Source of the DNA: a virus
Virus record (IMG/VR): IMGVR_UViG_3300012269_000002
Span: 1 to 64,000 of that record
Reading direction: 5' to 3' (one strand)
DNA length: 64,000 nt
In this document: positions 13,306 through 53,202 of the stretch, piece by piece
How the letters are laid out: each line of letters starts with the position of its first letter
How positions within the stretch are numbered: position 1 is the stretch's first letter
The notes under the pieces: generated by a model
Seen by the model: only the letters and a program-made list of their open reading frames with translations
What the model was told of the DNA's origin: nothing
Databases searched by the model: none
Made by a program: the position numbers and the translations under genes

Positions 13306-13371
13306 AACACACTAAAAAAAATAAATATGATGTATTACATACATCATAAAAACTTTTGGTTTAATTTTACA

Positions 13372-13378: not shown

Positions 13379-13421
13379 AATAAAACATTACAAAATAATA
13401 ATTTTAAAAAAAAAGTAAATA

Positions 13422-16229: not shown

Positions 16230-16246
16230 TAGTAAAAAAACCCTAT

Positions 16247-16280
16247 AAAAAAACCCTATGATTTCTCATAGGGTTTTTTT
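16247..16280. terminator. Bidirectional terminator after tail sheath
   Basis: Perfect 15-bp stem (aaaaaaaccctatga / tcatagggttttttt) around a 4-base loop. It serves the sheath gene and the convergent endonuclease gene, whose stop lies in the stem. A second copy of one arm (aaaaaaaccctat, 16234-16246) directly precedes it. Confidence 0.9.
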
Positions 16281-17924
16281 ATATGTAATTGTTCCACAAT
16301 CATATATTCTATAAATTTTTCTATTAAGCATTATTTCATGTTCAGTTAAGTTTTCCGTATCAAATCCATCATCACTTAATTTACTTTTTCTAAAATTAAA
16401 TCTATGTTTTCTAGCTTTACCTACAATATACCAATAATTTGGTTTATTAGTTTTAACCTCATCAAAACCAAGGGTATTATAAAGACCACCATCACTCCAT
16501 CTTCTATCAGCATAACTCCTTATTTCATTTGGATTATAAGCGTTTATAAAGTGTTTTAAGAGCCTAGATGCCCCACCAATAACATTAGTATCCAGTTTAT
16601 TAGCAAACCTACTTAATTCATAACCATCGAACTTAGCACCTATACCTAGTCTTGGTTTATTAAATGTCATAACTGAAACCAATTCATCATTATAATAAAG
16701 CCCTAAATTAACACTACTTTTAACACTACCCTGTAAATGGGTTTTATTTAAAAAAATATCCTTATCACTTTTTGTGATATATTTTATATTACATTGCCTA
16801 GCATAAATTTTATCATTAGTTAAACCTAAAATATTCTTTAATCTACTCTTGACAATATATTCCTTATTTAACCACTCATCTTCAAAAATATGAATAAGAC
16901 GAATTCCCTTGTTTTCACACCCCAGTGTTTTATCTAAATGATAATTATTATATATAAATTTTTCAGAATGCCAATATAACCCATTATACTCAATGGCTAA
17001 GTTATGTGATGGAATATAAATATCCAATTGTTGTGGTTCTATTATTGACCTAGATGATTGAATCGTCATTATATTTAATTCATTTATTATAAAATCATTT
17101 ATATATTTTTCAACACTAGATACTGAAGACGTACATTTTACACACCCATGACCACTCAAATGGTCATATGGTAATTGCTCAAATTCACCATGCTCTGGAC
17201 AAATAATGATAATTTTATTATGACTCCCATTATAAAATGTTGTTGAATAATCATACTTAAAACTATGAACAATATTACTCTTATAAATAAAATCACCAAT
17301 ATCTAATGTTAAAACTTTTTTAGTTCTTTCAACCCCACATTTATTACAGCCCTTACCGCTTAAATGCTTACTTGGAGATTGTTCAAAATCACCATGCTTT
17401 GGACATCCAATAATAACCTTATTGACACTATCAATATATTCAACTTTTAAATAATCATATTTATCTCCATGAACTATTATTGATTTTTTAATAAATAAAT
17501 CAGTTGTATACTTTTTTTTATCACTAGTATTTATTACCCCACATTTAGGACAACCTTGTCCACTTAAGTGATTACCTGGGGATTGTTCAAAATCACCATG
17601 TTCTGGACATCCGATAATAACTTTAGTTTTAATACCCTTATAATCGACCAACCCATAATCATACTTAACACCATGTATTAATAATGATTTTTTAATAAAT
17701 AAATTAGTATCATATTTTGGTGATTTACTACATAAAGAACAACCCAAACGACCTCTTAAATGGTCAGATGGTAGTTGTTCAAATAAAATATTATGGGTTT
17801 TACATATTATTTTAATTTTTTTATCACTCCGAGTATAATCCATTTTAGAAAAATCAAATTTATCCCCAAATTTATTAAATGATTTCAATAAAAATTTTTT
17901 ACTTTTATTTTTAGTATTATTCAT
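16266..17924 (-). CDS. Free-standing Vsr-type homing endonuclease, copy 1
   Basis: Mobile endonuclease of 552 residues inserted between the sheath and tube genes on the opposite strand. The N-terminal half has four or five copies of a zinc-ribbon-like module (KYDY..V.Y, KVIIGCPEHGDFEQSP, HLSGQGCPKCG; DUF723-like), probably for DNA recognition. The core QLDIYIPSHNLAIEYNGLYW, followed by GIRLIHIFEDEW, is a Vsr/PD-(D/E)XK-type nuclease of the kind found in phage homing endonucleases. A C-terminal domain follows (RSYADRRWSDGGLYNTLGF, HRFNFRKSKL). It is clearly related along its length to the gene at 18661. It probably has no role in virion assembly. Confidence 0.85.
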   Translation of the reverse strand: MNNTKNKSKKFLLKSFNKFGDKFDFSKMDYTRSDKKIKIICKTHNILFEQLPSDHLRGRLGCSLCSKSPKYDTNLFIKKSLLIHGVKYDYGLVDYKGIKTKVIIGCPEHGDFEQSPGNHLSGQGCPKCGVINTSDKKKYTTDLFIKKSIIVHGDKYDYLKVEYIDSVNKVIIGCPKHGDFEQSPSKHLSGKGCNKCGVERTKKVLTLDIGDFIYKSNIVHSFKYDYSTTFYNGSHNKIIIICPEHGEFEQLPYDHLSGHGCVKCTSSVSSVEKYINDFIINELNIMTIQSSRSIIEPQQLDIYIPSHNLAIEYNGLYWHSEKFIYNNYHLDKTLGCENKGIRLIHIFEDEWLNKEYIVKSRLKNILGLTNDKIYARQCNIKYITKSDKDIFLNKTHLQGSVKSSVNLGLYYNDELVSVMTFNKPRLGIGAKFDGYELSRFANKLDTNVIGGASRLLKHFINAYNPNEIRSYADRRWSDGGLYNTLGFDEVKTNKPNYWYIVGKARKHRFNFRKSKLSDDGFDTENLTEHEIMLNRKIYRIYDCGTITYKKTL

Positions 17925-17942
17925 TTTTTATTTTTTTCTATA

Positions 17943-17949
17943 TATTTAT
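17943..17949 (+). promoter_or_regulatory. Candidate late-promoter motif before tail tube
   Basis: ATATATTTATTGTAAA lies 81 bases upstream of the tube start, farther than elsewhere, so the assignment is weak. Confidence 0.3.
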
Positions 17950-18023
17950 TGTAAACATCAATATACTAATATATTGTAAAGATAATTAAAATAAATAAAT
18001 AAATCAAATTAAAATAAAAAATT

Positions 18024-18512
18024 ATGGCAGACTTACTAATGAAAATGCCCGTACCATACGAGCCTAAAAGGAAAAATAGATGGTTACTAAGGTTTCCAGC
18101 TGATTTAGGAATACAGGAATGGTGGTTAGCATCGGCATCAAGACCATCTATTAATCAAAGTGATGTTGAGATACCTTTCTTAAATACATCTACTTGGGTA
18201 ATAGGTAGATTTACGTGGGAACCGATAACGGTAACCTTTAGAGACCCTATTGGGCCTTCGGCTACCCAAGCTATTATGGAATGGGTACGTTTACAATCTG
18301 AAAGTATCACTGGTAGACAAGGTTATGCCGCTGGGTATAAAAAAGATGTTGAATTGGAAATGCTTGACCCAACTGGGGTTGTTGTTGAAAAATGGGTACT
18401 TCAAGGTACTATGTTAACAACAGTTAATTTTGGTGATTTATCTATGGATGATGACAGTATAGCCGACATTACAGCCGACCTAAGGTTTGACCGAGCAATA
18501 CTTTTGTTCTAA
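18024..18512 (+). CDS. Tail tube protein (gp19-like)
   Basis: Builds the inner tail tube inside the sheath. It is 162 residues, almost the same as T4 gp19 (163). Typical features are the N-terminal PYEPKRKNRWLLRFPADLGI strand, WLASASRPS, VIGRFTWEPITVTFRDP, and AIMEWVRLQSESITGRQGYA before the C-terminal strands. It is a single gene flanked on both sides by related homing endonuclease genes. A short inverted repeat and two direct repeats follow its stop. Confidence 0.93.
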   Translation: MADLLMKMPVPYEPKRKNRWLLRFPADLGIQEWWLASASRPSINQSDVEIPFLNTSTWVIGRFTWEPITVTFRDPIGPSATQAIMEWVRLQSESITGRQGYAAGYKKDVELEMLDPTGVVVEKWVLQGTMLTTVNFGDLSMDDDSIADITADLRFDRAILLF

Positions 18513-18544
18513 CTTAACACACTTATAATAAGTTACTTACGTTT

Positions 18545-18605
18545 TATCGAATCATAAAACATAAGTAATATCAGAGTATCGAATCATAAAACATAAGTAA
18601 TATCA
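18545..18605 (+). repeat. 29-bp direct repeat, two tandem copies
   Basis: The 29 bases from tatcgaatcat to gtaatatca occur at 18545-18573 and again at 18577-18605 with 3 bases between. Upstream acttacgttttat can pair with ataaaacataagt inside copy 1, giving a 13-bp hairpin with one mismatch just after the tail tube gene. May be a processed or weak terminator, or residue of the endonuclease insertion. Confidence 0.75.
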
Positions 18606-18606
18606 T

Positions 18607-18645
18607 AAAAAAGTCCGTTTAAACATTGTTTAAACGGACTTTTTT
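18607..18645. terminator. Strong bidirectional terminator after tail tube
   Basis: Perfect 17-bp stem (aaaaaagtccgtttaaa / tttaaacggactttttt) with loop cattg. The TTG of the promoter for the next gene lies in this loop and 3' arm, so terminator and promoter overlap. Confidence 0.92.
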
Positions 18646-18656
18646 CTTTATATTTG
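18626..18656 (+). promoter_or_regulatory. Bacteroidetes-type promoter for endonuclease copy 2
   Basis: TTG (18626-18628), 20 bases, TATATTTG (18649-18656), a full consensus match. The ATG at 18661 starts 5 bases after the end of the -7 box, so the mRNA should be leaderless or nearly so. Confidence 0.75.
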
Positions 18657-18660
18657 TGTT

Positions 18661-20325
18661 ATGAATATAAAAGAGATATTATTAGAATGTAAAGAAGTTC
18701 ATAAGAATAAATATAATTATTCCAAGGTGACTTACGTTAATGCTAAAACTAAGGTTGTTATAGGTTGTCCAGAACATGGTGATTTTGAACAATTATTATA
18801 TAGTCACAAAAATGGTTTTGGGTGTAATGAATGTGCTTTAATTGTGAGGGCTAATAAACGTAGGTTAAGTCAAGATGACTTTATTGAACAATGTAAAAAT
18901 GTTCATGGTGATTATTATGATTATTCATTAGTTAATTATACTAAAATTAAAAATAATATTAATATAATTTGCCCAAGACATGGTAAGTTTGAACAAACTG
19001 CCGATGACCATAAGAATGGTCGTGGGTGTGTTAAGTGTTATAGGTCTAAACAATCTGAAAATAATCTTAAAGAAAATACTGAATCTTTTATTGATAGATT
19101 AAATTCTGAGCTCCCAAATAATGATTATGATTTTTCAGAAGTTAATTATATACATGGTAAGTCTAAAGTAATTATTACATGCCCAATACATGGTAGATTT
19201 GAGAGAAAGCCTAATTTAATACTGGATAGTAAAAAAATATGTTTGGGGTGTTCACCTAAAAAGATAGCCAGTAATAGGATTACTACTGAGGAATTTATTA
19301 TTAGGGCCATTAAAATACATGGTAATAAATATGATTATTCGAAAGTTGTTTATAAATCACCAAAATCTAAAATAATAATAATTTGCCCAGAGCATGGTGA
19401 ATTTAAACAATCAGCATATAATCATATAAATCCAATTAATTTTATGGGTTGTAATGAATGTGGTAAAAAATATGATAAAAGTGAAAATGAAGTATCTGAT
19501 TTTATAACTACATTGGGTATCTATTTTGAAAAAAATAATAGGTTAATTCTAAATGGTAAAGAATTGGATATTTATATTCCGTCTCTTAATGTCGCTATTG
19601 AGTATAATGGGTTATATTGGCATTCTGAATTACATAAAGATAATAACTATCATTTAGATAAAACAATAGAATGTGAAAAACTAGGAATTCAGTTAATTCA
19701 TATTTTTGAAGATGAATGGTTAGATAAACGAGAAATTGTTGAGAGTAGATTGAAGAATATATTAGGGTTAACTAACATTAAGGTTTTTGGTCGTAAATGT
19801 GTGGTTCGTGAAATACCAACTAAAGAGTGTAGGTTATTTTTTGATATGAATCACTTACAGGGGTATACTAACTCGAAATATAAATTAGGTTTATATTATA
19901 ATGATGAGTTAATTTCAGCTATGTTATTTACCACCCCAAGATTAGGTATTGGTGCTAAGTTCGATGGTTATGAATTAACCAGGTTTGTCAATAAACTTAA
20001 CACTAGTGTTGTTGGGGGTGCTGGTAAATTATTAAAACATTTTATAAAAACCTATAATCCAAATGAAATAAGAAGTTATGCTGATAGAAGATGGAGTGAT
20101 GGGGGTCTTTATAATAAACTTAATTTTATTAAAATGAATATAAATAAACCAAATTACTGGTATGTTAAAGGATTAAAAAGATATCATAGATTTAATTTTA
20201 GAAAAGGAAAGTTAAATGATATGGGTTATAATATTGAGGGTAAAACTGAGCGTGAGATTATGTTAGAGGCTGGTTATTTAAGGATTCATGATTGCGGAAC
20301 AATGCAATATATATTAAAACCCTAG
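18661..20325 (+). CDS. Free-standing Vsr-type homing endonuclease, copy 2
   Basis: Paralogue of the endonuclease at 16266-17924, 554 residues, same architecture. It has four N-terminal DUF723-like zinc modules (NKYNYSKVTY, KVVIGCPEHGDFEQ, GCNECA), a nuclease core (LDIYIPSLNVAIEYNGLYWH, GIQLIHIFEDEW) and a C-terminal domain (RSYADRRWSDGGLYNKL, HRFNFRKGKL). Unlike copy 1 it has its own host-type promoter overlapping the upstream terminator. Its stop codon lies inside a terminator hairpin. The two copies bracket the tail tube gene. Nuclease family is clear; the exact target is unknown. Confidence 0.85.
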   Translation: MNIKEILLECKEVHKNKYNYSKVTYVNAKTKVVIGCPEHGDFEQLLYSHKNGFGCNECALIVRANKRRLSQDDFIEQCKNVHGDYYDYSLVNYTKIKNNINIICPRHGKFEQTADDHKNGRGCVKCYRSKQSENNLKENTESFIDRLNSELPNNDYDFSEVNYIHGKSKVIITCPIHGRFERKPNLILDSKKICLGCSPKKIASNRITTEEFIIRAIKIHGNKYDYSKVVYKSPKSKIIIICPEHGEFKQSAYNHINPINFMGCNECGKKYDKSENEVSDFITTLGIYFEKNNRLILNGKELDIYIPSLNVAIEYNGLYWHSELHKDNNYHLDKTIECEKLGIQLIHIFEDEWLDKREIVESRLKNILGLTNIKVFGRKCVVREIPTKECRLFFDMNHLQGYTNSKYKLGLYYNDELISAMLFTTPRLGIGAKFDGYELTRFVNKLNTSVVGGAGKLLKHFIKTYNPNEIRSYADRRWSDGGLYNKLNFIKMNINKPNYWYVKGLKRYHRFNFRKGKLNDMGYNIEGKTEREIMLEAGYLRIHDCGTMQYILKP

Positions 20326-20340
20326 GAATTCCTAGGGTTT
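20317..20340. terminator. Bidirectional terminator, endonuclease/phosphoesterase
   Basis: Perfect 10-bp stem (aaaccctagg / cctagggttt) with loop aatt and T-run, overlapping the endonuclease stop codon and serving the convergent phosphoesterase gene too. Confidence 0.88.
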
Positions 20341-20341
20341 T

Positions 20342-21085
20342 TTATTTACCATACTTTTTATTTAATTCTTTTTCATAATCGGTATAATTGATTAACGGAA
20401 AGAATTCCCCAATATTTAAACAAATATGTTGACAATTAAATCTAAGAGTCCTTATATTTTGGTGAAAATGACCATAAAAATGATGGGTAATATTGTTATT
20501 TTCATTAATTATATTAAAAGCTGTCGATAACAATTCTCTTTCCAATATTAAATCATCCATTAATTTATCATCATATGTAGCAAATCTATTAATAATTTCA
20601 GGTGTTTTACCTGGAACATTAATCGGTGGTATAAAACTAGGGGTGGTATGTGTAACCAAAATATCAATACCCCTAACTTCTTTTAAGAAATCCTCATTTA
20701 AAACAAATAATTCATCTTCCCAATGCGAGTTAGTTTCAAGTCTTCTAGGGACCCTATCTATACTAATGGCACCACCTATACCAAGTATTTTTTTATTCTC
20801 TATTTCCAAAACGGTATAATCGGGGTGTAGTTTTAAATTGGATAATAGATAGTCACCCTTAAAAAATTTAGGGTCGTCATGATTACCCCTGATAACGTGT
20901 AGGGTTATATCCCTTTCCTTTAGAAATTCGTTGAAGAATTCTAATTTTTTTATTTCGTTACTTGTTCTAGTAAACCCAACACCATAATCACCAACATGTA
21001 TTATATGTTCGTTAGTTATTTTTTTTTGCTTTATTGTCCATTGGATAAAAGCATCGTTACCGTGAGTATCCCCTAAGAAAATCAT
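20342..21085 (-). CDS. Calcineurin-like metallophosphoesterase
   Basis: A 247-residue phosphoesterase with the five metal-binding blocks of the family: GDTHG near the start, HVGDYG, VIRGNHDDP, ILVTHTTPS and HFYGHFHQN. By family it hydrolyses phosphoesters with two metal ions. The substrate (protein, nucleotide or nucleic acid) cannot be told from sequence. It is on the minus strand with a perfect host-type early promoter 29 bases upstream of its ATG, so it is probably an early gene and not part of the tail block around it. Confidence 0.85.
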   Translation of the reverse strand: MIFLGDTHGNDAFIQWTIKQKKITNEHIIHVGDYGVGFTRTSNEIKKLEFFNEFLKERDITLHVIRGNHDDPKFFKGDYLLSNLKLHPDYTVLEIENKKILGIGGAISIDRVPRRLETNSHWEDELFVLNEDFLKEVRGIDILVTHTTPSFIPPINVPGKTPEIINRFATYDDKLMDDLILERELLSTAFNIINENNNITHHFYGHFHQNIRTLRFNCQHICLNIGEFFPLINYTDYEKELNKKYGK

Positions 21086-21113
21086 ACCGTTATAAAATTT
21101 TTATTAATTTACG

Positions 21114-21145
21114 CAAATATAATAAATAAAAAACACTTATGCAAA
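21114..21145 (-). promoter_or_regulatory. Bacteroidetes-type promoter for phosphoesterase
   Basis: On the minus strand: TTTG (21145-21142), 20 bases, TATATTTG (21121-21114). Perfect match to the -33/-7 consensus. Confidence 0.8.
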
Positions 21146-21162
21146 TAAAACTTTACTTATTA

Positions 21163-21169
21163 TATTTAT
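21163..21169 (+). promoter_or_regulatory. Candidate late-promoter motif before gp26-like gene
   Basis: TTATATTTATTTAGTAGA lies 50 bases upstream of the ATG at 21213, divergent from the phosphoesterase promoter. Confidence 0.35.
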
Positions 21170-21212
21170 TTAGTAGATTAAGAATAATAAAATTTTAAAA
21201 ATAGTTTTAATT

Positions 21213-22274
21213 ATGAGTGATAAAAAACCAGATGTTTTTCAAACAAAAAACACAGATAATATGGAATTTCCAAGTCAAATTTCTAGTGCAGAGGAACTTG
21301 CGGCTAATAAAATGAAAAGAAGAACCGAGGAACAAATTAAACTTAGGTCTGAAAATTTAGCTAAAAGTGAGGAAATAGCTAGGGAAACCGAAAAAACAAG
21401 ACTAATACAAATGGAAGAAAAAAATGCTCACCAATCAAATCAAAATTCTAGTAATCAACAAATGATAGAGCCAACGGTTAATTACCCACAAGTTACTAAA
21501 GCACCAGAACTTAGTGATATTGAAATAATGAGCCAACCCCAAATGAATCAAGCATTTGATGTAATCCCATTACCGTCCGAGGGTAAATTATACCCATCTA
21601 AAAAGAAAAGTATCAAGGTTGCGTATTTAACGACCGCTGATGAAAATATTCTTACGTCACCTAACTTAGTTGATAGTGGGCAATTTTTGGAAATACTATT
21701 AAATAGAAAGATTTTAGAACCAGAACTAAGATATAGTGATTTACACACTGGTGATAGAAATGCTATTATGGTTTGGCTTAGGGCCACTGGTTATGGTACT
21801 GATTACCAAATACAAATGTTGGATAAAAATAATGTACCATTTGAAACATCCTTTGATTTAAGTACTCTTAAAACAATAAAATTAGGTGCTGAACCAGATT
21901 TGGAAGGTTTATTTTATTTTAAAATGCCATTAAGTGGTGATGATATAAAATTTAAACTATTAAGCGTTGGTGATGTTGATGCAATAGGTGAATTATTAGA
22001 ATTGGATAAGGTTAATGGTGTTACTATTAATACTGAACCTACCCACATTTTAAACTTTCATATAATTGAGGTAAACGGTGATAGAAGTAGAGATTTTATT
22101 AAGGAATATTCAAATAATATTAGAACATTAGATGCTCAGAAACTTAGGAAATTTATTAGTAGTATCGAAAGCGGTATAGATTTAAATGTCGATATCAAGA
22201 CTCCTGGGGGTGGGTCTATAACTACATTTCTTCCAATTAACCCAAGCTTTTTTTGGCCTAACTCGGAATTATAA
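21213..22274 (+). CDS. gp26-like baseplate/tail assembly protein (chaperone)
   Basis: A 353-residue protein. Residues about 1-100 are charged and low-complexity with many Gln and Glu. From about 115 the sequence FDVIPLPSEGKLYPSKKKSI, then AYLTTADENILTSPNLV and HTGDRNAIMVWLRATGYG, is typical of the T4 gp26/gp51 baseplate-hub assembly family (T4_baseplate). These genes usually sit just before the tape measure and are thought to act like tail assembly chaperones. The gene ends in a run of seven T (22248-22254, codons S-F-F-W). After it the next reading frame continues open into a conserved-looking domain, suggesting a programmed frameshift. A late-type motif lies 50 bases upstream. Confidence 0.75.
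   Translation: MSDKKPDVFQTKNTDNMEFPSQISSAEELAANKMKRRTEEQIKLRSENLAKSEEIARETEKTRLIQMEEKNAHQSNQNSSNQQMIEPTVNYPQVTKAPELSDIEIMSQPQMNQAFDVIPLPSEGKLYPSKKKSIKVAYLTTADENILTSPNLVDSGQFLEILLNRKILEPELRYSDLHTGDRNAIMVWLRATGYGTDYQIQMLDKNNVPFETSFDLSTLKTIKLGAEPDLEGLFYFKMPLSGDDIKFKLLSVGDVDAIGELLELDKVNGVTINTEPTHILNFHIIEVNGDRSRDFIKEYSNNIRTLDAQKLRKFISSIESGIDLNVDIKTPGGGSITTFLPINPSFFWPNSEL
22248..22254 (+). promoter_or_regulatory. Candidate programmed frameshift site (T7 run)
   Basis: AGC-TTT-TTT-TGG: a run of seven T, eight codons before the stop of the gp26-like gene. A +1 (or -2) shift here continues without a stop into the frame of the downstream gene. A -1 shift meets a stop within three codons. Confidence 0.5.
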
Positions 22275-26549: not shown

Positions 26550-26645
26550 TGTTATATATAGTAATATAATATATAATATATAATATATAATATATAATAT
26601 ATAATATATTATATATAGTAATATAATATATATTATATATAGAAA
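26550..26645. repeat. AT-only repeat tract (7-bp unit)
   Basis: About 95 bases made almost only of A and T, with about six copies of atataat flanked by two copies of ttatatatagtaatataatata (one at each end). It lies in the untranslated gap after the tape measure. It can fold on itself extensively; no gene or known origin signal is seen. Confidence 0.75.
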
Positions 26646-42247: not shown

Positions 42248-44692
42248 ATGAGTAAAATAGATAAAGATAAGTTAGGGTATTTAGGTATTGATTTCCAATA
42301 TAGGTTATTACAGCAAATTATAGTAGATAGAAAATTTGGTGAGTCGATTATAGATATAATGACACCAAATTACTTTGAAGATGCATTTTTAAGGAGTGTT
42401 GCTGGTAAAATAAAGGATAACTACGAAAAATACGAAACAATACCAGACATGAATAGTTTGGAATCTATATTATATGAAAATATAATTGATGAAGTTGACA
42501 AGGAAATGTATATCAGTTCCCTTAAAAGAATCAAAGAGGCCGAACAGAACAATAGTCTTAGAACCCAAGACATTGCAATGAAATTTTGCAAACAACAAGA
42601 GTTAAAAAAATCTGTAAGAGAAATGCAGTTGATAATTGAAAAGGGTGACTTGGACGATTATCATTTATGTGAAGAACTTCTTAAGAAAGCCTTAGAGGTC
42701 GGACATAGTAAAGATGATGGTATAGATGTATTCTATGATATCGAAAGTGTATTATCCGAAGATTTCAGGGACCCAATACCAACGGGTATCGATGGATTGG
42801 ATACTTACATGGATGGTGGATTGGCTAAAGGTGAATTAGCGGTGATTTTAGCCCCTACTGGGGTTGGTAAAGCTCAACCTCTTACATCTAAAATATTAAC
42901 ACCTAACGGTTGGACAACTATGGGAAAAATACAAGTTAATGATTTTGTTATTGGTGATGATGGTAAAAAGACTAAAGTTATTGGTGTGTTTCCACAAGGT
43001 AAACGACCTATATATGAAATTAAATTTAACGATGGTACATCTACATTATGTGATGAAGAACATTTATGGTCTGTAAATACAATAAACCAACGTAATCGTA
43101 AAACTAAAAAAAATGGTAAAGTAGTTTATCTACCAAGTGATGATAGTTTTAAAACGATTAAAACTAAAGACATGTTAGATGATATTAAAAAATGGGGTGG
43201 TAAAAATAATTATAAAATACCCATAGTTAAACCAGTTCAATTTGAAAATAATACTAAATTACCTATCGACCCATATGTAATGGGATTAATATTAGGTGAT
43301 GGATGCATTACGGATTCAAATCAACCTAGAATAACAACTAAAGATGAATTTATTGTTAATGAAGTTAAGAGTAGGTATAATGATGTTAATATTTATTCTA
43401 GAGAACGTTATATTGAAGAAAATAGTACCAATAAAATTATGTTAAATAAAAGGAGTATTCTTGAAATATCATTATTAGGTGCTAAATCTAAATTAAGTGA
43501 TTTAAAATTATATGGTTGTAATAGTGAATCTAAATTTATACCTAACTTATATTTGTTTAATACTATAGAAAATAGGTTATCTTTGTTACAAGGTTTAATT
43601 GATAGTGATGGTTACATTAATTCACATAGAATAGAATATGTGACTGTTTCAGAATCGCTATGTAATGGAATGATTGAGTTAATTCGTTCATTAGGTGGTA
43701 AAGTTAGTTTTAAAACGAAAATAGGTTCATATAAAAATAAATTAGGTGAAATTATTAACTGTAAAAAATATTATAGATTATCTATGAGTTTACCCAATAA
43801 TGGTATTATACCTTCCTTATTACCTCGTAAACGTAATAAATTTATAAATAGGGAAAAATATTCTAGTAATAAATTTATTACCTCAATTGAATATCACGGA
43901 CATTTAGAGGCACAATGTATTATGGTAGATAATATTAATCATTTATATGTGACAGATGATTATATTGTAACTCATAATACCACATTGAGCACTAAGTTAG
44001 CAAACCACGCTAAAAACATAGGTAAAAACGTTCTACAGATATTCTTTGAGGATAACCCAAAGATAATTCAGAAGAAACATTTAACATGTTGGATGGAAGG
44101 TAAATACACATTAAACGAGCTAAGTGAAAATAAAGAAGAAATATTTGCTGTTGCCGAGGAAATGCAAAGTAGACCTGGAACTATTAGATTAAAAAAATTT
44201 CCTAGTGATAGTACTACAATTCCGATAATTAAACAGTATATTAAAAAATTGATGTCACAAGGATTTAAACCTGATTTAGTTATATTGGATTATATTGACT
44301 GTGTACAATCAAGTAAACAATATAAGGAAAGTTGGGATGCGGAAGGTAATGTAATGCGACAATTTGAAACGATGTTATCAGAACTTGATATGGCTGGTTG
44401 GACCGCTGTTCAAGGTAACCGTTGTGTTTCTATTGATACTCATGTAGTTACTAAGAAAAATGGTAATATAAAAATAAAAGATATTGTTGAAGGTGATGAA
44501 ATATTAACACATAAAGGTTATAAGAAGGTAACACATGTATTTCCTATTGAAAAGCAACCGATATATAAAATAAAATTAAAATCTGGTAAAACTATAAATG
44601 TATCTAAAAAACATAAGTTTCCAACTAGTGATGGAAAACTTTTATCAATACAAGATGGTTTAAAAGTGGGTGATAAATTATTAACTAAATAA
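42248..44692 (+). CDS. Replicative helicase gp41, N-part, with cis-intein and intein N-half
   Basis: First of two genes for the DnaB-family replicative helicase (T4 gp41). Residues 1-208 are the primase-contact domain and the start of the RecA core, ending ILAPTGVGK. A 369-residue cis-intein (209-577) interrupts the Walker A motif. The helicase continues with TTLSTKLANHAKNIGKNVLQ, through LVILDYIDC (Walker B) to GWTAVQGNR. It then runs into the 89-residue N-half of a split intein (CVSIDTHVVTKKNGNIKIKD) and stops. The missing C-terminal 111 residues are on a separate gene at 45875, after an endonuclease gene. Summed exteins are 467 residues, like T4 gp41 (475). Confidence 0.93.
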   Translation: MSKIDKDKLGYLGIDFQYRLLQQIIVDRKFGESIIDIMTPNYFEDAFLRSVAGKIKDNYEKYETIPDMNSLESILYENIIDEVDKEMYISSLKRIKEAEQNNSLRTQDIAMKFCKQQELKKSVREMQLIIEKGDLDDYHLCEELLKKALEVGHSKDDGIDVFYDIESVLSEDFRDPIPTGIDGLDTYMDGGLAKGELAVILAPTGVGKAQPLTSKILTPNGWTTMGKIQVNDFVIGDDGKKTKVIGVFPQGKRPIYEIKFNDGTSTLCDEEHLWSVNTINQRNRKTKKNGKVVYLPSDDSFKTIKTKDMLDDIKKWGGKNNYKIPIVKPVQFENNTKLPIDPYVMGLILGDGCITDSNQPRITTKDEFIVNEVKSRYNDVNIYSRERYIEENSTNKIMLNKRSILEISLLGAKSKLSDLKLYGCNSESKFIPNLYLFNTIENRLSLLQGLIDSDGYINSHRIEYVTVSESLCNGMIELIRSLGGKVSFKTKIGSYKNKLGEIINCKKYYRLSMSLPNNGIIPSLLPRKRNKFINREKYSSNKFITSIEYHGHLEAQCIMVDNINHLYVTDDYIVTHNTTLSTKLANHAKNIGKNVLQIFFEDNPKIIQKKHLTCWMEGKYTLNELSENKEEIFAVAEEMQSRPGTIRLKKFPSDSTTIPIIKQYIKKLMSQGFKPDLVILDYIDCVQSSKQYKESWDAEGNVMRQFETMLSELDMAGWTAVQGNRCVSIDTHVVTKKNGNIKIKDIVEGDEILTHKGYKKVTHVFPIEKQPIYKIKLKSGKTINVSKKHKFPTSDGKLLSIQDGLKVGDKLLTK
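42872..43978 (+). other. Class 3 cis-intein (Ala1, WCT) in gp41 Walker A
   Basis: 369 residues, starting AQPLTSKILTPNGWTTMGKI, so residue 1 is Ala and not Cys or Ser. The class 3 triplet is present: W in CDEEHLWSV (block B), C in EAQCIMVDN (block F) and T in DYIVTHN (block G), with Thr at +1. In this class the block F Cys does the first attack. LAGLIDADG endonuclease motifs are MGLILGDGCI and LLQGLIDSDGYI. It splits GVGK from TTLSTKL, so ATP binding needs splicing. Confidence 0.88.
44423..44689 (+). other. Split intein N-half (gp41-8-like)
   Basis: 89 residues: CVSIDTHVVTKKNGNIKIKD, then YKKVTHVFPIEKQPIYKIKL and HKFPTSDGK; followed by a stop codon. From memory it resembles the N-half of the very fast gp41-8 split intein known from marine metagenomes. 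Insertion point QGNR/SSL is in a conserved motif of the helicase core. Confidence 0.9.
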
Positions 44693-44703
44693 CTTTTTTG
44701 TAC

Positions 44704-44769
44704 TGCGGTTAACTTTTTAATAAATTATAACTATTTATAATGAAATATATTATGAAAAAGTTAACTGCA
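44704..44769 (+). promoter_or_regulatory. Start-sequestering hairpin with internal late-type motif
   Basis: Arms 44704-44718 and 44755-44769 pair over 15 bp (one G-U). The 36-base loop holds TATTTAT at 44732-44738 and the ATG at 44752-44754 directly before the 3' arm. Read-through RNA would hide the start region; RNA begun inside the loop would not. Confidence 0.65.
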
Positions 44770-45882
44770 AAATATATTATTAATAGGAAAATGTTTAATA
44801 ATATTGAAGAAAATACGATTACTGAAAGACATTTAAATGAAATTGATAAAATTTTAAAAAAATATGATAATAAAACTATAAAAAATAGGTTAAAAAATAT
44901 TCATGATTTTATAAAATATAATGTTGATGGGTGTTGGTTAGAAAGGATAAATATTATTAGAACTGTTTTAAAAAATGATGTAACATCTGATTATGCTTTA
45001 GAAATAAGATATGGAAAAAAAAATGTAGAAAAAAAGAAAAAAGATTTTTCAAGTAAATTTGGACATAGTTTAGAAAAATATAAAAAAAAATATGGTGAGT
45101 TGTTAGGTAAAATAAAATGGGAAGAATATTTAAAAAAATCAAAAACACCTTGGGGTTTAGATGCATGTATTGAAAAATTTGGTAAAATAAAAGGTCCTAA
45201 AAAATGGGATGAAAGACTAAGTAGAAAAAATAAAACTATGTCTGAGCGAAAATTAATAAAACCATATAGAAATGGTAGAACTTTAAAAGAATATCAAAAT
45301 AGGTATGGAATTGAAGAAGGTTTTATTAAATGGGATAAAAGAAATAAAAAACAAAGTTATAGATTTAGTAAAAAATATTATATAAATACTTTTGGTGAAA
45401 AGGTTGGTAATGAAAAATGGAATGAATATCGTAAAAGAATGAATTTAACTTCATTAGATAGTTTCATAAAACGTTACGGTAAAAAGAAAGGTATTGAAAA
45501 GTTTAACACTTACATAAGTAAATGTTTTAAAAGTGGTTCTTTTTATAGTAAAATTTCACAAGAATTATTTTTTGAAATTTATAATAAATTAACTGAAAAT
45601 ATAAAAAAGGGTGTTAGATTTGCTAAATTGAATGGTGAGGAAGTATTTCACGTTAATCAAGATGATTTAAAAATAATAATGGTTGATTTTAAATGTGGTA
45701 ATAGAATAATAGAGTTTGATGGTGATTATTGGCATGATAATACTAAACAAAAAATAATTGATAAAAAACGAGATGAGTATTTAAAAAGTAAAGGTTATAA
45801 TATTATGAGAATATGGGAATCAGAGTATTTGAAAAATAAAAATAAAATAATAAATAAATGTTTAAAATTTATAAATGAATAG
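44752..45882 (+). CDS. Vsr-type homing endonuclease in the gp41 gap
   Basis: Endonuclease between the two gp41 genes, about 376 residues. The N-terminal two-thirds has about six copies of a basic module (KYGELLGKIKWEEYLKK, KFGKIKGPKKWDERL, RYGIEEGFIKWDKRN, TFGEKVGNEKWNEYR, RYGKKKGIEKFNTYI), probably for DNA binding. The C-terminal nuclease core is RIIEFDGDYWHD, then DKKRDEYLKSKGYNIMRIWE, the EDxHD/Vsr-like type described from fractured genes with split inteins. An ATG at 44740 also exists; 44752 is preferred because it lies 20 bases after the late-type motif and abuts the hairpin arm. Its stop overlaps the start of the gp41 C-part by 8 bases, so translation is probably coupled. Confidence 0.88.
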   Translation: MKKLTAKYIINRKMFNNIEENTITERHLNEIDKILKKYDNKTIKNRLKNIHDFIKYNVDGCWLERINIIRTVLKNDVTSDYALEIRYGKKNVEKKKKDFSSKFGHSLEKYKKKYGELLGKIKWEEYLKKSKTPWGLDACIEKFGKIKGPKKWDERLSRKNKTMSERKLIKPYRNGRTLKEYQNRYGIEEGFIKWDKRNKKQSYRFSKKYYINTFGEKVGNEKWNEYRKRMNLTSLDSFIKRYGKKKGIEKFNTYISKCFKSGSFYSKISQELFFEIYNKLTENIKKGVRFAKLNGEEVFHVNQDDLKIIMVDFKCGNRIIEFDGDYWHDNTKQKIIDKKRDEYLKSKGYNIMRIWESEYLKNKNKIINKCLKFINE

Positions 45883-46363
45883 TGATATGAATAAATATGA
45901 TATTAGTATGGATGATTTTTCATTAGATGAAATAGAATCCATAGAATTAATGGGCGAAGAAGATACAATAGATATAACAGTAGAAGATACACATATGTTT
46001 TATGCTAATGATATTTACACACATAATTCATCACTTACGGCAGAAACGGTCGATTCAAGTATGTTCGGGGGGTCTATTAAAAAAGCACAAATAGGTCACT
46101 TCATCATTTCAATAGCAAAAACATTGGACCAAAAAGAACACGGAACCGCAAATATGGCGATACTTAAATCTAGATTTGGTCAAGACGGGATAATATTTGA
46201 GGATATTATTTTCGATAATGGTAGAATACAGATAAGTATTAATAAGGGGCAAGAGGATGGTCATAGCTTTTTACAAAGTAAACAAAATAGAGCCGTAAAG
46301 GACCAGAATAGAGTTAGTAATATTATGGCCGCCATACAAGAGAGAAAAGAATTAGAAGGATAA
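45875..46363 (+). CDS. Replicative helicase gp41, C-part, led by intein C-half
   Basis: Second gene for gp41. Residues 1-51 are the intein C-half (45875-46027), ending TIDITVEDTHMFYANDIYTHN, close in memory to the gp41-8 C-half (EETIDINVTNDRLFFANGI). It is followed by Ser +1 and the last 111 residues of the helicase: SSLTAETVDSSMFGGSIKKA, FIISIAKTLDQKEHGTANMA (sensor and arginine-finger region). The needed residues (HN, S+1) are present, so trans-splicing with the 42248 product is expected. Its start overlaps the endonuclease stop. NrdB follows 27 bases later. Confidence 0.92.
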   Translation: MNSDMNKYDISMDDFSLDEIESIELMGEEDTIDITVEDTHMFYANDIYTHNSSLTAETVDSSMFGGSIKKAQIGHFIISIAKTLDQKEHGTANMAILKSRFGQDGIIFEDIIFDNGRIQISINKGQEDGHSFLQSKQNRAVKDQNRVSNIMAAIQERKELEG

Positions 46364-47388: not shown

Positions 47389-49821
47389 ATGAAAGTAATA
47401 AAAAGAGATGGTTCATCGGAGCCAATTAAATTCGATAAGATATCGGCAAGAATTAAGAAACAAACTTACGGTTTGAATACGGATTATGTTGATTACATGG
47501 AAGTTACTCAGAAAGTTATTGCTGGAATTTTTGATGGTATTACAACAAAAGAATTAGATAACCTAGCCGCAGAAATTGCGGCTTCGTTAACTAGGGTACA
47601 TTATGATTATTCTAAACTTGCCTCTAGGATTTCTATTTCTTCATTAAAGAAGTATACTAAAAAAAGTTTCACGGAAACCATTGAGGACCTTTACCATTAT
47701 GTAAACCCAATAACTGGCGAACAAGCTGGTCTTATTGCGGACAACGTATATAATATCGTTCGTGAAAACTCCAAAAAACTTGAACAAATGATTGTTCATG
47801 ACAGAGATTTCGACTATGACTTCTTCGGTTTTAAAACACTTGAAAGAGCATACTTATTAAAAATTAATAATGAAATAGCCGAAACTCCACAACATATGTG
47901 TTTAAGAGTTTCATTGGGGATTTGGGGAGATAACCTTAAAGAGGTTCAAAAGACATATGATTCCTTAAGTAAAGGTTTATTCACACACGCAACACCTACG
48001 CTTTTTAATTCTGGAACTAAAAAGCCACAGTTGTCAAGTTGTTTTGTTGCTGGTACAAGTGTATTTACAACAAGTGGTGTTAAAAATATTGAAGATGTTG
48101 AAATTGGTGATAAAGTAGTTACTCACAAGGGTAACGTTAAGGAGGTTCAACAACTACATAAAAATAAATTAAATGATAGACAATTGTATGACCTTAAAAC
48201 TTATGGTAGTCCAAATATGACTGTAACTGGTAATCATAGAATTTTATCATTATCAAAAGAACAAGATAAGTGGGGTAAAACACCAAAATGGAACTCGGTT
48301 GAATACCTAAGGGTCGGGGATTATGTGGCCATACCAAACAAAATTGGTAAATATGCACCAGAAAAGGTTGAATTAATAGATTATGTACCAAATAATTATG
48401 GTAATATAGAATTAGAAAGTGAAATCATTGGAGATAAACTAAAAGTAAAATCAAAATGGTTGCGAAGACACAAATTAAATAATAATGGTGGTAATATTAT
48501 AGTCACTAGAAAACATAATGAGATAAATAAATCAATCATAATTGATGAAGATTTTGCATTTTTATTAGGTGTTTGGATTGGTGATGGAAATATATTAACT
48601 GGTAAAGATTATAGTAAAACTTTAACTGTTAATAGGGGTATTAGATTTACAAATAATAAGGATGCCTATGGTTTAATTGATAGGTTAGATAAATTAATAA
48701 CTAAAATATTCGGTATTGATGGTAATATTTCAAAACCAACAAAAACCAATACAATAACTATTGATGTACATTCACATGTTATATCTAATTATTTTTATAA
48801 AAACTTTGGTAAGGGTTTTAATGGTAAAAAAATACCCGATTTCATGTATAATTGGGATAAACTTATGATTTCAAAATTTTTAGAAGGTTTAATAACTTCT
48901 GATGGTTGTGTGACTAAAAGTGGTGATATTAGGATTACTATGGCAAATATTGACTTAATCAAATCAATATTTGCTTTATCCAGAAACTGTGGTATACCAT
49001 TATCATACTCCGAGGCAACATCATTAAAATTAGGTGGGACTAAATTAACCGCTAGGATATCTTTACCTAAGGGTTCAATAGATTTATCCAATATCTATAA
49101 ACTATATAATGACGAAAGGTTAAGTGAGTATTTTAATAAGTCAAATAAAAATTCCAATATTAAAATAATAAATGGTACAACTTTTATTATAATAAATAAA
49201 AAAAGTGAAAATATTAGTAAACCAGAATTTGTATATACGCTAGGTGTTCAGGATGACCATTCATATGTTGTTGAAGGTAATGTAGTTGAAAATTGTTTCC
49301 TATTGGGTATGGCAGATGATTCAATCAAGGGCATATATGAGTCTTTAAGCGATTGTGCCGACATTTCTCAGTCCGCTGGTGGTATCGGTATCCACATTCA
49401 TAATGTTCGTGCCAAGGGCACTTATATAAAGGGTACAAATGGAACCTCTAATGGTATTGTACCTATGTTGAGGGTTTATAATGAAACAGCTAGATATGTA
49501 GACCAATGTTTTACCGAAGAAACATTAATCAATACCGATAAAGGGTTAATTAAAATTAAAGATATTTCTGAAGGGGATAAAGTTAAAACGTCAAATGGTT
49601 TTAATAAAGTTAAAAAAGTTAAAAAATTTAATAAAGAAAAAAGAGAATTAATAAACGTTAATGGTAAAACTAAATCAACAGTAAGTCACCCTTATTTAGT
49701 AGTTGAAGATTCAACTGGTAGAGATTTAGAAATCATTAAATTATCAATTAAATCTGGAACATTAATACCTAAATGGGTTGAAGCTAAAGATTTAAATAAA
49801 AATATGTTTATATTAAAATAA
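47389..49821 (+). CDS. nrdA: Ribonucleotide reductase large subunit, N-part, with cis-intein and intein N-half
   Basis: First of three NrdA genes. The N-terminal ATP-cone starts MKVIKRDGSSEPIKFDKISA; the barrel begins with ETPQHMCLRVSLGIWG and THATPTLFNSGTKKPQLSS. A 418-residue cis-intein (218-635) then interrupts before the redox-active Cys (E. coli C225). The extein resumes CFLLGMADDSIKGIYESLSD, through AGGIGIHIHNVRAKGTYIKG to NETARYVDQ. The last 104 residues are the N-half of a split intein (CFTEETLINTDKGLIKIKDI, STVSHPYLV), followed by a stop. The extein so far is 288 residues. Confidence 0.93.
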   Translation: MKVIKRDGSSEPIKFDKISARIKKQTYGLNTDYVDYMEVTQKVIAGIFDGITTKELDNLAAEIAASLTRVHYDYSKLASRISISSLKKYTKKSFTETIEDLYHYVNPITGEQAGLIADNVYNIVRENSKKLEQMIVHDRDFDYDFFGFKTLERAYLLKINNEIAETPQHMCLRVSLGIWGDNLKEVQKTYDSLSKGLFTHATPTLFNSGTKKPQLSSCFVAGTSVFTTSGVKNIEDVEIGDKVVTHKGNVKEVQQLHKNKLNDRQLYDLKTYGSPNMTVTGNHRILSLSKEQDKWGKTPKWNSVEYLRVGDYVAIPNKIGKYAPEKVELIDYVPNNYGNIELESEIIGDKLKVKSKWLRRHKLNNNGGNIIVTRKHNEINKSIIIDEDFAFLLGVWIGDGNILTGKDYSKTLTVNRGIRFTNNKDAYGLIDRLDKLITKIFGIDGNISKPTKTNTITIDVHSHVISNYFYKNFGKGFNGKKIPDFMYNWDKLMISKFLEGLITSDGCVTKSGDIRITMANIDLIKSIFALSRNCGIPLSYSEATSLKLGGTKLTARISLPKGSIDLSNIYKLYNDERLSEYFNKSNKNSNIKIINGTTFIIINKKSENISKPEFVYTLGVQDDHSYVVEGNVVENCFLLGMADDSIKGIYESLSDCADISQSAGGIGIHIHNVRAKGTYIKGTNGTSNGIVPMLRVYNETARYVDQCFTEETLINTDKGLIKIKDISEGDKVKTSNGFNKVKKVKKFNKEKRELINVNGKTKSTVSHPYLVVEDSTGRDLEIIKLSIKSGTLIPKWVEAKDLNKNMFILK
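48040..49293 (+). other. LAGLIDADG cis-intein in NrdA before C225
   Basis: 418 residues: CFVAGTSVFTTSGVKNIEDV at the start, TVTGNH in block B, endonuclease motifs FLLGVWIGDGNIL and FLEGLITSDGCV, and end VYTLGVQDDHSYVVEGNVVEN followed by Cys +1. The penultimate residue is Glu and not the usual His, so Asn cyclisation must be helped otherwise. The +1 Cys is the catalytic Cys of NrdA. Confidence 0.9.
49507..49818 (+). other. Split intein A, N-half, in NrdA
   Basis: 104 residues beginning CFTEETLINTDKG and ending WVEAKDLNKNMFILK, interrupted by a stop codon and 41 non-coding bases before the C-half gene. It contains block B STVSH. The insertion site is YVDQ/GGGK. No endonuclease gene lies in this gap. 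Confidence 0.85.
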
Positions 49822-49862
49822 TAAACATGTAAGAACATGAATTTAATAAAATAAAATAAAAA

Positions 49863-51087
49863 ATGGCATACAAAGATAGTATTGAAAATTTTAATGAGCT
49901 AGGTTATGACTTAGATAACATTAAATTAGAAAAAGTTAAATCAATAAGTACTTCAATAGAAGATTGTGAAGTATATGATTTAGAAATTGATGAGTTTCAT
50001 AATTATGAAACAGAAATGGGATTAGTTCATAATGGTGGTGGTAAACTTTTGCCTTCACGTTAAAAAAATTCAGTTAATTGCTGGAACTCCCTTAGAGTTT
50101 ATAATACTACAACGCAGATGGTAACGTCAAACGTGAATGTTTGAAAAATTATAAAATTGGGAAATCAGCAGCCAAGGTTCTTAGAAATAAGAATAAGGTT
50201 CAACGACTAGGTTATGGAGTCTTAATATTAAGTTAAAGATAGTAAAAACCCACGAAAGCTGGACAATGTTAATTCATTGAAGATATAGTCTAGACTTATT
50301 AGAAATAATAAGAGGTTGAGATAAAGAACTCAACGTTAATACAACGAAAAGAAAGGGTAGTATTGCCGTATATTTAGAGCCATGGCATGCGGATGTACAG
50401 GATTTCATTCAATTAAGAAAGAATCACGGAAAGGAAGAAATGAGAGCTAGAGATTTATTCTTAGCCTTATGGACCCCAGATTTATTTATGCAGAGGGTTG
50501 AATCCGATGGTGATTGGACTTTAATGTGTCCACATGATTGTCCAGGTTTATCCGATGTTTATGATACTAAGGATAGTAAGGCTTTTACTGAATTATATGA
50601 AAGTTATGAGGCTTCTGGTAAAGGAAAGAAAACCTTAAAAGCTAGAGAATTATATGCTGAAATTCTTGAGAGTCAAATTGAAACTGGGACACCTTACATA
50701 TTATTCAAGGATGCTGCCAATAGTAAATCAAACCAACAAAATATAGGTACAATTAAGTCTTCAAACTTATGTCTAGTTGGTGAAACTAATATTAAAATTA
50801 GATTAAATGGTATTGAGGGTGAAATAAGAATGGATTTATTAAATGAGTTATTTAAAACTAATGAAAATTTAGAGGTTTTAAGTCATAATATTAGAACAAA
50901 AGTTAATGAGTGGAAATTAGTCACAAATTCAGCAATGACTAACCCTAAAACTAATGTTTTAAAAATAACTGACGAAAAAACTGGTAAATCAATTAAATGT
51001 ACGCCAGAGCACGAAGTCTTTACTGAGAATAGAGGTTATATTATGGCTAAAGATTTAAAATCTGATGATGTTTTAGTAATTAATTAA
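49863..51087 (+). CDS. nrdA: Ribonucleotide reductase large subunit, middle part (intron-containing)
   Basis: Second NrdA gene, best read as exons 49863-50042 and 50347-51087 (306 residues after intron removal, frame kept). Residues 1-57 are the C-half of split intein A ([22 protein letters not shown]). Then come GGG, the group I intron and [20 protein letters not shown], through [20 protein letters not shown] and [19 protein letters not shown] to IKSSNL. The last 105 residues are the N-half of split intein B ([39 protein letters not shown]). This protein thus needs trans-splicing at both ends. Unspliced RNA would stop at 50063 after [12 protein letters not shown]. The +1 residue of intein A is Gly. 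Confidence 0.85.
50043..50346 (+). ncRNA. Group I intron in nrdA
   Basis: 304-nt self-splicing intron without an ORF. Core elements are in order: P (aattgctggaactccc, 50076-50091), Q (gaaatcagcagccaag, 50161-50176), R (ggttcaacgactag, 50197-50210) and S (gaagatatagtc, 50279-50290). P7 pairs gacta with tagtc. P1 pairs exon GUGGUGGU (50035-50042) with GCCUUCAC (50051-50058), with the expected U-G at the splice site and one U-U mismatch. A P9-like hairpin (gttgag/ctcaac) lies near the 3' end, and the last base is G. Joining exons gives [17 protein letters not shown], exactly the conserved NrdA sequence. Confidence 0.93.
50770..51084 (+). other. Split intein B, N-half (NrdA-2/NrdJ-1-like)
   Basis: 105 residues from [11 protein letters not shown] to [12 protein letters not shown], then a stop. 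In style it matches, from memory, the split inteins NrdA-2 and NrdJ-1 of marine metagenomes (CLxGxxxI, CTPEHxVxTxNRGY, KDLxxDDxLV). It interrupts SNL/CTEI, just before the thiyl-radical Cys (E. coli C439). Confidence 0.9.
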
Positions 51088-51098
51088 AAATATTTTAG

Positions 51099-51144
51099 TA
51101 ACTTCCATAATTATAAGATATTTATTATTAAATTATGGAAGTTA
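51099..51144 (+). promoter_or_regulatory. Start-sequestering hairpin with internal late-type motif
   Basis: Perfect 14-bp inverted repeat: taacttccataatt (51099-51112) and aattatggaagtta (51131-51144). The 18-base loop holds TATTTAT (51119-51125). The endonuclease ATG at 51135 lies inside the 3' arm. A transcript begun in the loop would lack the 5' arm and be translatable. Confidence 0.75.
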
Positions 51145-51899
51145 TGAAAAATAATAAATATTATGTGTATGGTTATTTCGACCCTAGAAAAGGGGGTGAA
51201 TATAAATTTGGTAAATATGTGTTTGAATTTGAGCCAATATATATTGGTAAAGGTAAATGTGGTTCTAAACGAATGGAAAGGCATTTATTATTCATAAAAG
51301 ATAGGAATATTGATTTAACGAATAATAAATATAAATTAAACTTATTTAATCAGATAATGAGTGATGGTCTTGAACCCATTTTTTTTAAAATAGAAGATAA
51401 ATTAAATGAAGACATCGCTTATAGTATTGAAACGCTTTTAATTGATTTAATTGGATTTAGACACAATAATACTGGAACATTAACCAATATAAGTGTTGGT
51501 GGATTTGGTGGTGATATGTTTACAAATAACCCTAATAAAGAATATATTAGGTCATTAAGGGTTAAACAAATGAGTGGTGAAGGTAACCATAGGTTTGGTA
51601 TTAAATTAGAGGATACCCCATCACATAAAATGAGGGGTGAAAATCATTGGAATACTGGTCGAGAAATTTCAAGCTCAACTAGAAAATTGATGTCAAAAAA
51701 TAATAGCGGTAAGAATAACCCCAATGCCACTAAAGTGTGTAAGTATGATTTGGATGGTAAATATATTTGTACATATAATACGATGAAAGAGGCATGTGTT
51801 GAAAATAATGTTAATAAGGGTTGTTTGATTAGGGCGTGTAAATCAAATTTAAAATACACTGCTAAAGGTTTTAAGTGGGGTTATAATAATAATAATTAA
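51135..51899 (+). CDS. GIY-YIG homing endonuclease in the NrdA gap
   Basis: 254-residue endonuclease between the intein B halves. The GIY-YIG core has YYVYGYFDPRKGG and FEPIYIGKGKCGSKRMERHL, with the Glu of AYSIETLLIDLIG further on. The C-terminal part has short NUMOD3-like motifs (GEGNHRFGIK, GENHWNTGRE, SGKNNPNATK) and a NUMOD1-like helix-turn-helix (KVCKYDLDGKYICTYNTMKE, NKGCLIRACK), the usual DNA-binding tail. Start at 51135 (an ATG at 51144 is an alternative); both are hidden by or next to the hairpin arm. It is expected to cut NrdA alleles that lack the insertion. Confidence 0.9.
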   Translation: MEVMKNNKYYVYGYFDPRKGGEYKFGKYVFEFEPIYIGKGKCGSKRMERHLLFIKDRNIDLTNNKYKLNLFNQIMSDGLEPIFFKIEDKLNEDIAYSIETLLIDLIGFRHNNTGTLTNISVGGFGGDMFTNNPNKEYIRSLRVKQMSGEGNHRFGIKLEDTPSHKMRGENHWNTGREISSSTRKLMSKNNSGKNNPNATKVCKYDLDGKYICTYNTMKEACVENNVNKGCLIRACKSNLKYTAKGFKWGYNNNN

Positions 51900-51933: not shown

Positions 51934-53202
51934 ATGATAAAAATAGAAGAATTAGAAGAGGAAGTTTCAGTTTATGATATCACTGTAGATGGTAATCATA
52001 ATTTCTACGCTAACGACATTTTAGTACATAATTGTACTGAAATAATGGAGGTTAGTACACCTGATGAAACAGCCGTATGTAACTTAGCTAGTGTCGCACT
52101 ACCAAAGTTCGTTGAAATCCCAAGTGGTAAAGTTAAATCTAAAGATAAGGAATTAAGAACATTCGACCATGATGGGCTATATGATATAGCATATCAGATT
52201 ACGGTTAACTTAAATCAAGTTATCGATATTAACTGGTATCCAACAGAAAAGGCTAAAAAGTCTAATTTTAGACATAGACCAATTGGTATCGGTGTTCAAG
52301 GTTTAGCTGATACATTTGCCATGTTAGGTTTACCGTTTGAATCAGATGAGGCTCAAAAATTAAATAAAGAAATTTTTGAAACGATTTATTTTGCATCTAT
52401 GACAGCATCTATGGATTTGGCTAAAATAAGTGGTTCTTATGAAACATTTGAAGGTTCACCAGTATCTAAGGGTATCTTCCAATTCGACATGTGGGAAATG
52501 GAAGAAGGTGAATTATCTGGAAGATGGGACTGGATTAAGTTGAAAAAAGCGGTAATTAAAAATGGTGTTAGAAATTCATTATTATTAGCACCGATGCCAA
52601 CAGCATCAACAGCTCAAATATTAGGTAATAATGAATGTTTTGAACCATATACCACCAACATATATAAGCGTAATGTTTTAGCTGGTGAATATATCATAGT
52701 GAATAAACATTTAATAAGTGATTTAATCGACTTAGGGTTATGGGATGATAAACTTAGAATTGATTTAATCAAGAGTAATGGTTCTATTCAGAGTATTGAT
52801 AGAATACCACAGAACGTTAAAGATATTTATAGAACTGTTTGGGAAATGAAATCCTCAACACTACTTAAAATGTCAAGGGATAGAGGTTTATTCATTTGTC
52901 AATCTCAATCAATGAATTTATTCATAAGGGATGCAAATACGGCTAAATTATCAAAAGCTTTGATGTATGGTTGGAAATTGGGTCTTAAGACTGGTATGTA
53001 TTACCTAAGAAGTAATTCTAGCGTTTCGGCCAAACAAAGTTTAGGTGCCGAAGTTCAACAAAGAGTAATCGAAGAGGTAAAACAAGAAGTGCCCGAAACT
53101 AAGTTAGTTGCACCCATTGTAAGCTCGATAGCCGAAGAAGAAGCACTTAAGGGTGTTACTTGTAGTTTGGATGACCCCGATTGTGAGGCATGTGGTAGTT
53201 AA
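51934..53202 (+). CDS. nrdA: Ribonucleotide reductase large subunit, C-part, led by intein C-half
   Basis: Third NrdA gene. Residues 1-33 are the C-half of split intein B (51934-52032), MIKIEELEEEVSVYDITVDG to NFYANDILVHN. After it come C+1 and 389 extein residues: CTEIMEVSTPDETAVCNLAS (the two active-site Cys, E. coli C439 and C462), RHRPIGIGVQGLADTFAMLG, LLLAPMPTASTAQILGNNEC and the C-terminal redox pair in DPDCEACGS. Required splicing residues are all present. Total NrdA extein from three genes is 821 residues, near normal (E. coli 761). A terminator follows. Confidence 0.93.
   Translation: MIKIEELEEEVSVYDITVDGNHNFYANDILVHNCTEIMEVSTPDETAVCNLASVALPKFVEIPSGKVKSKDKELRTFDHDGLYDIAYQITVNLNQVIDINWYPTEKAKKSNFRHRPIGIGVQGLADTFAMLGLPFESDEAQKLNKEIFETIYFASMTASMDLAKISGSYETFEGSPVSKGIFQFDMWEMEEGELSGRWDWIKLKKAVIKNGVRNSLLLAPMPTASTAQILGNNECFEPYTTNIYKRNVLAGEYIIVNKHLISDLIDLGLWDDKLRIDLIKSNGSIQSIDRIPQNVKDIYRTVWEMKSSTLLKMSRDRGLFICQSQSMNLFIRDANTAKLSKALMYGWKLGLKTGMYYLRSNSSVSAKQSLGAEVQQRVIEEVKQEVPETKLVAPIVSSIAEEEALKGVTCSLDDPDCEACGS

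Follow-up and report, generated by a model that had tools for sequence, protein, structure and literature searches.

A predicted timing switch over the start of a homing endonuclease gene between split-intein halves in a phage nrdA

The inverted repeat at positions 51099-51144 of a 64,000-nucleotide stretch of viral DNA (hereafter the window, taken from a virus record of 161,293 bases) is probably a timing switch of the homing endonuclease gene located between the two split-intein halves in nrdA. In the mechanism proposed here, early transcripts reading through nrdA would carry both arms of the repeat, and their folding would leave the endonuclease start (51135 or 51144) hidden; both NrdA pieces would then be made and the endonuclease would not. 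Later on, a late-reprogrammed RNA polymerase would initiate just downstream of a TATTTAT motif, inside the loop, and the resulting RNA, devoid of the 5' arm, would leave the start open and allow the endonuclease to be made. Additionally, the endonuclease may bind the hairpin arm that resembles its presumed homing site and thereby hold down its own production, in the manner of I-TevI.

Two protein similarities make a Bacteroidota host likely for this phage: its NrdB shares about 75% identity with the NrdB of Tenacibaculum phages, and its baseplate protein is similar to the one from Flavobacterium phage immuto. Other sequence features of the window include an array of ATATATAATATATA-like repeats (26568-26640) upstream of a 1150-aa ORF and two intergenic, perfect 18-bp inverted repeats with loops of 3-4 nt (16244-16283 and 18607-18645), which are terminator-like. 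Two adjacent genes, L118:12007 and L118:13254, resemble each other at the N-terminus and are preceded by near-identical sequence (gtgttttga.tatatttatcgtatatagttacattt).

Judging from its ORFs and their domain matches, the nrdA locus is a fractured gene, with the intein halves carried on separate ORFs and a free-standing endonuclease ORF between them, all on the plus strand. The middle NrdA fragment (50440-51087 as the longest ATG ORF; Pfam Ribonuc_red_lgC 6.7e-38 and Intein_splicing 2.9e-7) ends in the split-intein N-half, which runs from about 50770, after SSNL. The C-half (51934-52032) opens the ORF 51934-53202, which continues into the C-terminal part of NrdA (Pfam Intein_splicing 6.3e-7, Ribonuc_red_lgC 7e-111). 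The gene between them (51135-51899, with an alternative start at 51144) encodes a GIY-YIG homing endonuclease according to its Pfam matches to LEM-3_GIY-YIG (1.6e-7; 31.8 bits against a curated cutoff of 27) and NUMOD3 (2.4e-4). In all 20 relatives checked, NrdA is uninterrupted at SSNL/CTEI. The initial annotation had likened the control of this gene to that of I-TevI; the pattern is supported by computation, and the gene lies not in an intron but between split-intein halves in NrdA.

The interruptions of nrdA amount to four, namely a group I intron and three intein insertions. The intron covers 50033-50312 and likely extends to about 50352 (Rfam Intron_gpI, E = 2.6e-18), and its exons are in frame as GGT/AAA AGA AAG provided that the cut follows GGTGGTGGT. 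A second intein site, VDQ/GGGKRK (49821-50040), has Gly rather than Cys, Ser or Thr as the first post-intein residue. Uninterrupted relatives read RYVDQGGGKRK at this site, and L092 and L108 also carry inteins at the same position, followed by the same Gly. The intein at VDQ/GGGKRK is broken at 49822-49863 by a stop, with a new ATG about 40 nt on and no endonuclease gene between the halves.

Regarding its anatomy, the hairpin consists of a 5' arm at 51099-51112 (TAACTTCCATAATT) and a 3' arm at 51131-51144 (AATTATGGAAGTTA, its exact reverse complement), both given on the plus strand, which together form a perfect 14-bp inverted repeat. The repeat begins at the 12th base past the upstream TAA stop (51085-51087), its 3' arm contains the endonuclease ATG at 51135-51137, and its loop of 18 nt, between 51112 and 51131, holds TATTTAT (51119-51125), all of which agrees with the first description of the element. 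When extended, the repeat reaches 20 nt at 90% complementarity. Perfect repeats of at least 14 bp with loops of 3-40 are expected by chance at a mean of 0.04 per 64 kb, according to 233 order-2 Markov sequences of that length, and the 66-nt stretch over the hairpin has a folding energy of -19.9 kcal/mol (z = -6.2), a stability that none of 200 shuffles reached. A search of the whole 64-kb window against Rfam at gathering thresholds gave no match, and a sigma-70 promoter scan did not exceed shuffles. The reading of the hairpin as an intrinsic terminator was rejected, since the 3' arm is not followed by a T-run and the interval from the NrdA fragment to the endonuclease gene gave no terminator-like site in the forward direction.

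The GIY-YIG gene has a second in-frame ATG at 51144 (MKNNKYYVYGYF...), 18 nt from TATTTAT, compared with 9 nt for 51135. Because the spacing in relatives is mostly 13-21 nt, 51144 is the better placed of the two; the ATG at 51135 is indeed present in the arm, as originally proposed, but the true start may instead be 51144. Folding with opening energies places both candidates under the hairpin. In the predicted structure of the long read-through RNA the start is sequestered, and TATTTAT is positioned such that a transcript begun from it would lose the 5' arm. From the geometry of T4 promoters, the late transcript would begin at about 51131-51133, and RNA from 51132, the predicted short form, is without stable structure. 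The predicted cost of opening the start drops from 11.5 kcal/mol in the long RNA to 0.6 kcal/mol in the short one, which supports the earlier claim that the former hides the start and the loop-begun RNA frees it.

The TATTTAT motif, the presumed late promoter element, is the most enriched 7-mer at 8-20 nt upstream of starts in the 161-kb record (24 occurrences versus 1.32 expected, p about 4e-22). It marks, among others, two baseplate genes (gp25 and gp6), a head-tail adaptor-like gene, an endolysin gene and several endonuclease genes. Among relatives, TATTTAT precedes gp25 by no more than 40 nt in 6 of 6 cases, whereas the interval 8-22 nt before the start contains it in 0 of 18 nrdB, 0 of 21 nrdA and 1 of 24 gp41 genes. 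The proposal that TATTTAT is a promoter motif is therefore backed by both the genome-wide enrichment and the gene classes in relatives, and these same classes point to activity late in infection. Searches of the 161-kb record, which is perhaps incomplete, for a gp55-like late sigma factor (the T4 protein and two families as queries) gave none. Three endonuclease-like genes of the record, L119:2472, L120:18540 and L117:2619 (record positions 124972, 160540 and 86119, respectively), also show TATTTAT together with a start-covering fold, and their start-opening energies fall from the long to the short RNA from 13.4 to 2.9, from 9.8 to 0.5 and from 10.7 to 3.6 kcal/mol, respectively.

A second hairpin of this kind is found in the window at another fractured gene, gp41-like, located 6.4 kb upstream of the nrdA locus and also on the plus strand. 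The N part of this helicase (42248-44692, identified by homologues) has a split-intein N-half at its end, from about 44423 onward, and the C-half with the C-terminal part of gp41 follows at 45875-46363 (Pfam Intein_splicing 9.5e-4 and homologous loci). Between them lies an EDxHD/Vsr-type homing endonuclease gene (44740-45882; Pfam DUF559 8.1e-10 and homologues), unrelated to the GIY-YIG gene, whose homologues begin at the position corresponding to 44752. The hairpin covers this start (44704-44769, from folding and the duplex test), with a 15-bp stem formed by 44704-44718 and 44755-44769, TATTTAT at 44732-44738 in the loop and z = -6.1 in the duplex test. In the gp41-site homologues of other contigs, TATTTAT mostly stands 13-20 nt before the start and a start-covering stem is kept, with stem sequences and registers that differ. 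In the duplex test, four gp41-type relatives (L009, L023, L024 and L036) give weak scores, although pairing of at least part of each start codon is still predicted; the distant EDxHD relatives L050-L085, mostly without TATTTAT, were excluded from the analysis. When about 100 TATTTAT-led starts were scanned without bias, the strongest hairpins fell nearly all at endonuclease genes. These include two families in nrdJ split inteins, where the same arrangement is seen, in some cases with GTG starts and GGAGG within the stem. The gp41-like gene of the window also contains an apparent LAGLIDADG-type intein at about 43300-43980 (QGLIDSDG motif; ending ...VTHN/TTLSTK).

The arms of the sister systems co-vary. 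In an arm-swap test on 16 non-redundant gp41-type loci, arms pair with their own partner at -15.5 kcal/mol versus -10.6 kcal/mol for permuted partners, and none of 20,000 permutations matches the self value. With the GIY-YIG gene of the window and three NrdJ-site genes included, z is -9.2, and 55 control TATTTAT genes show a weak self-pairing excess (z about -2.3 to -3.3). This co-variation pertains to the sister systems and not to the 51099-51144 hairpin itself, because the relatives of the GIY-YIG gene are only near-identical copies in viral contigs (L002-L004), and genome contigs gave none. The start-opening energies also set endonuclease genes apart, with 11.9 kcal/mol in the long RNA versus 1.6 kcal/mol in the predicted short RNA, compared with 5.3 versus 2.8 kcal/mol in controls (p = 4e-8). 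In all 24 genes examined, at least one base of the start codon is predicted to pair with a stretch that lies ahead of the predicted transcript start. Under the identical opening test, T4 I-TevI (13.8 versus 5.0 kcal/mol) and I-TevII (8.1 versus 4.0 kcal/mol) give a matching pattern, so the parallel with I-TevI drawn in the initial annotation is upheld at the level of computation.

The weakest layer of the case concerns the mimicry of homing sites by the hairpin and its possible role as an operator. A matrix built exclusively on 16 uninterrupted nrdA relatives, for which about 100 overlapping matrix windows were tried, has its single best match in the 64 kb, both strands considered, at 51097-51112 on the minus strand (AATTATGGAAGTTACT), overlapping the 5' arm. 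The NrdA sequence that the arms resemble, a presumed part of the homing site, is AATAATGGAGGTTAGT (52041-52056, plus strand), as given by the matched-site comparison and the matrix. A pairwise alignment of the GIY-YIG hairpin with its own homing site is not significant, as a score this high is reached by 18% of random 50-mers. A gp41 extein-site matrix, with the tested locus left out and the matrix window picked after looking, finds the same box upstream of TATTTAT, usually among the top 20 of 13,000-22,000 positions, in loci that are not independent because of shared descent. In the window this conserved box (TTTGTACTGCGGTTAACT, 44697-44714, plus strand, from the leave-one-out matrix and alignment) is the mimic of the gp41 homing site in reverse complement and overlaps the 5' arm of the second hairpin. 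At nrdJ loci the site is matched by both arms, and the comparison of matched with mismatched sites, with the window gene pooled in, gives about p = 0.01. The operator of I-TevI resembles its own homing site and mediates autorepression (PMC2988022); by analogy, the mimic in the arm suggests a candidate operator for the endonuclease, the homing sites themselves being putative.

This mimicry, in the form of the best nrdA match in 64 kb, both arms at NrdJ sites and the conserved box at gp41, is also what speaks for an alternative in which the palindrome is mainly a DNA operator, made of inverted endonuclease sites flanking the promoter, and the hairpin in the RNA is incidental, with no influence on translation. 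This alternative is considered unlikely. G-U pairs make up 48 of the 514 spanning pairs and loop sizes range from 3 to 34, features that favour selection on the RNA and would not be expected of a fixed dimer operator. Moreover, the mimic box of the gp41 family overlaps the 5' arm only partly and the 3' arm shifts relative to the start among relatives, and the paired region always takes in at least part of the start codon. Less probable still is that the hairpin acts as a processing or stability element guarding the upstream or downstream nrdA message instead of locking the start codon. It does lie between two gene halves that both need expression, and T4 endonuclease genes are known to have RNA processing sites nearby (PMC2988022), but the arms follow the start codon and not the end of the upstream gene, the 3' arm reaches the start in 24 of 24 genes, and the stem has no T-run after it. 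Finally, an unselected repeat, left by template-switch mutation or by the repair of quasi-palindromes in AT-rich DNA with TATTTAT as a chance AT-rich string, would suit a region of about 28% GC in a window with other long repeats, but is the most improbable of all given the positional enrichment of TATTTAT (p about 4e-22), the co-varying arms and the presence of hairpins at unrelated endonuclease starts in three target genes and their absence from most other TATTTAT genes.

If the timing switch operates as proposed, split-intein endonuclease genes would stay off while the essential host gene is made early, by means of the same lock as that of the T4 intron endonucleases, which would then be a convergent solution rather than a peculiarity of T4. 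About 20 natural variants with differing stems would be usable as tests. A broader reading, which we hold tentatively and regard as somewhat doubtful, is that in each endonuclease gene one short sequence does two jobs, as a DNA mimic of the homing site that the endonuclease would bind to shut off its own late promoter and as an RNA lock on the start codon, having evolved separately at the nrdA, nrdJ and gp41 split-intein sites in unrelated families and converged on the T4 I-TevI design. The homing site would in that case be reusable as DNA operator and RNA arm alike.

Fractured genes, in which a conserved gene is interrupted by the two halves of a split intein flanking an endonuclease gene, with the Vsr-related (EDxHD) family among these endonucleases, were reportedly described by Dassa et al. 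in 2009, whose abstract is said to name apparent gene control elements at some loci. In the literature searched, no description of a hairpin lock in a split-intein setting was found. As Dassa et al. may have noted part of this, the claim of novelty is kept to the new setting of a known control.

On every computable feature, the nrdA locus appears to be like the systems for which a hairpin and a late promoter have been described, which are I-TevI, I-TevII, I-TevIII, segB and Aeh1 mobE (PMC2988022, PMC3014915). It shares with T4 I-TevI, in the td intron, a GIY-YIG enzyme inside a nucleotide-metabolism gene, a hairpin in the long RNA and a promoter motif placed so that the late RNA loses the 5' arm, both of the latter predicted here (PMC2988022). 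The operator of I-TevI, which resembles its homing site, may have a counterpart in the candidate operator at the nrdA locus. The two differ in their host element, a group I intron for I-TevI and a split intein at the nrdA locus, and in their promoter motif, TATAAATA and TATTTAT, respectively; unlike in I-TevI, the arms themselves would constitute the homing-site mimic at the nrdA locus, and the AUG lies in the stem. The NrdA of Aeromonas phage Aeh1 functions as a split protein and is not known to carry an intein, whereas the NrdA pieces described here bear split-intein halves. In Aeh1, as here, an endonuclease gene (mobE) splits nrdA; it has a late promoter and a hairpin over its translation start region (PMC2988022), both of which are predicted at the present locus, although mobE encodes an HNH enzyme and the gene at the present locus a GIY-YIG one.
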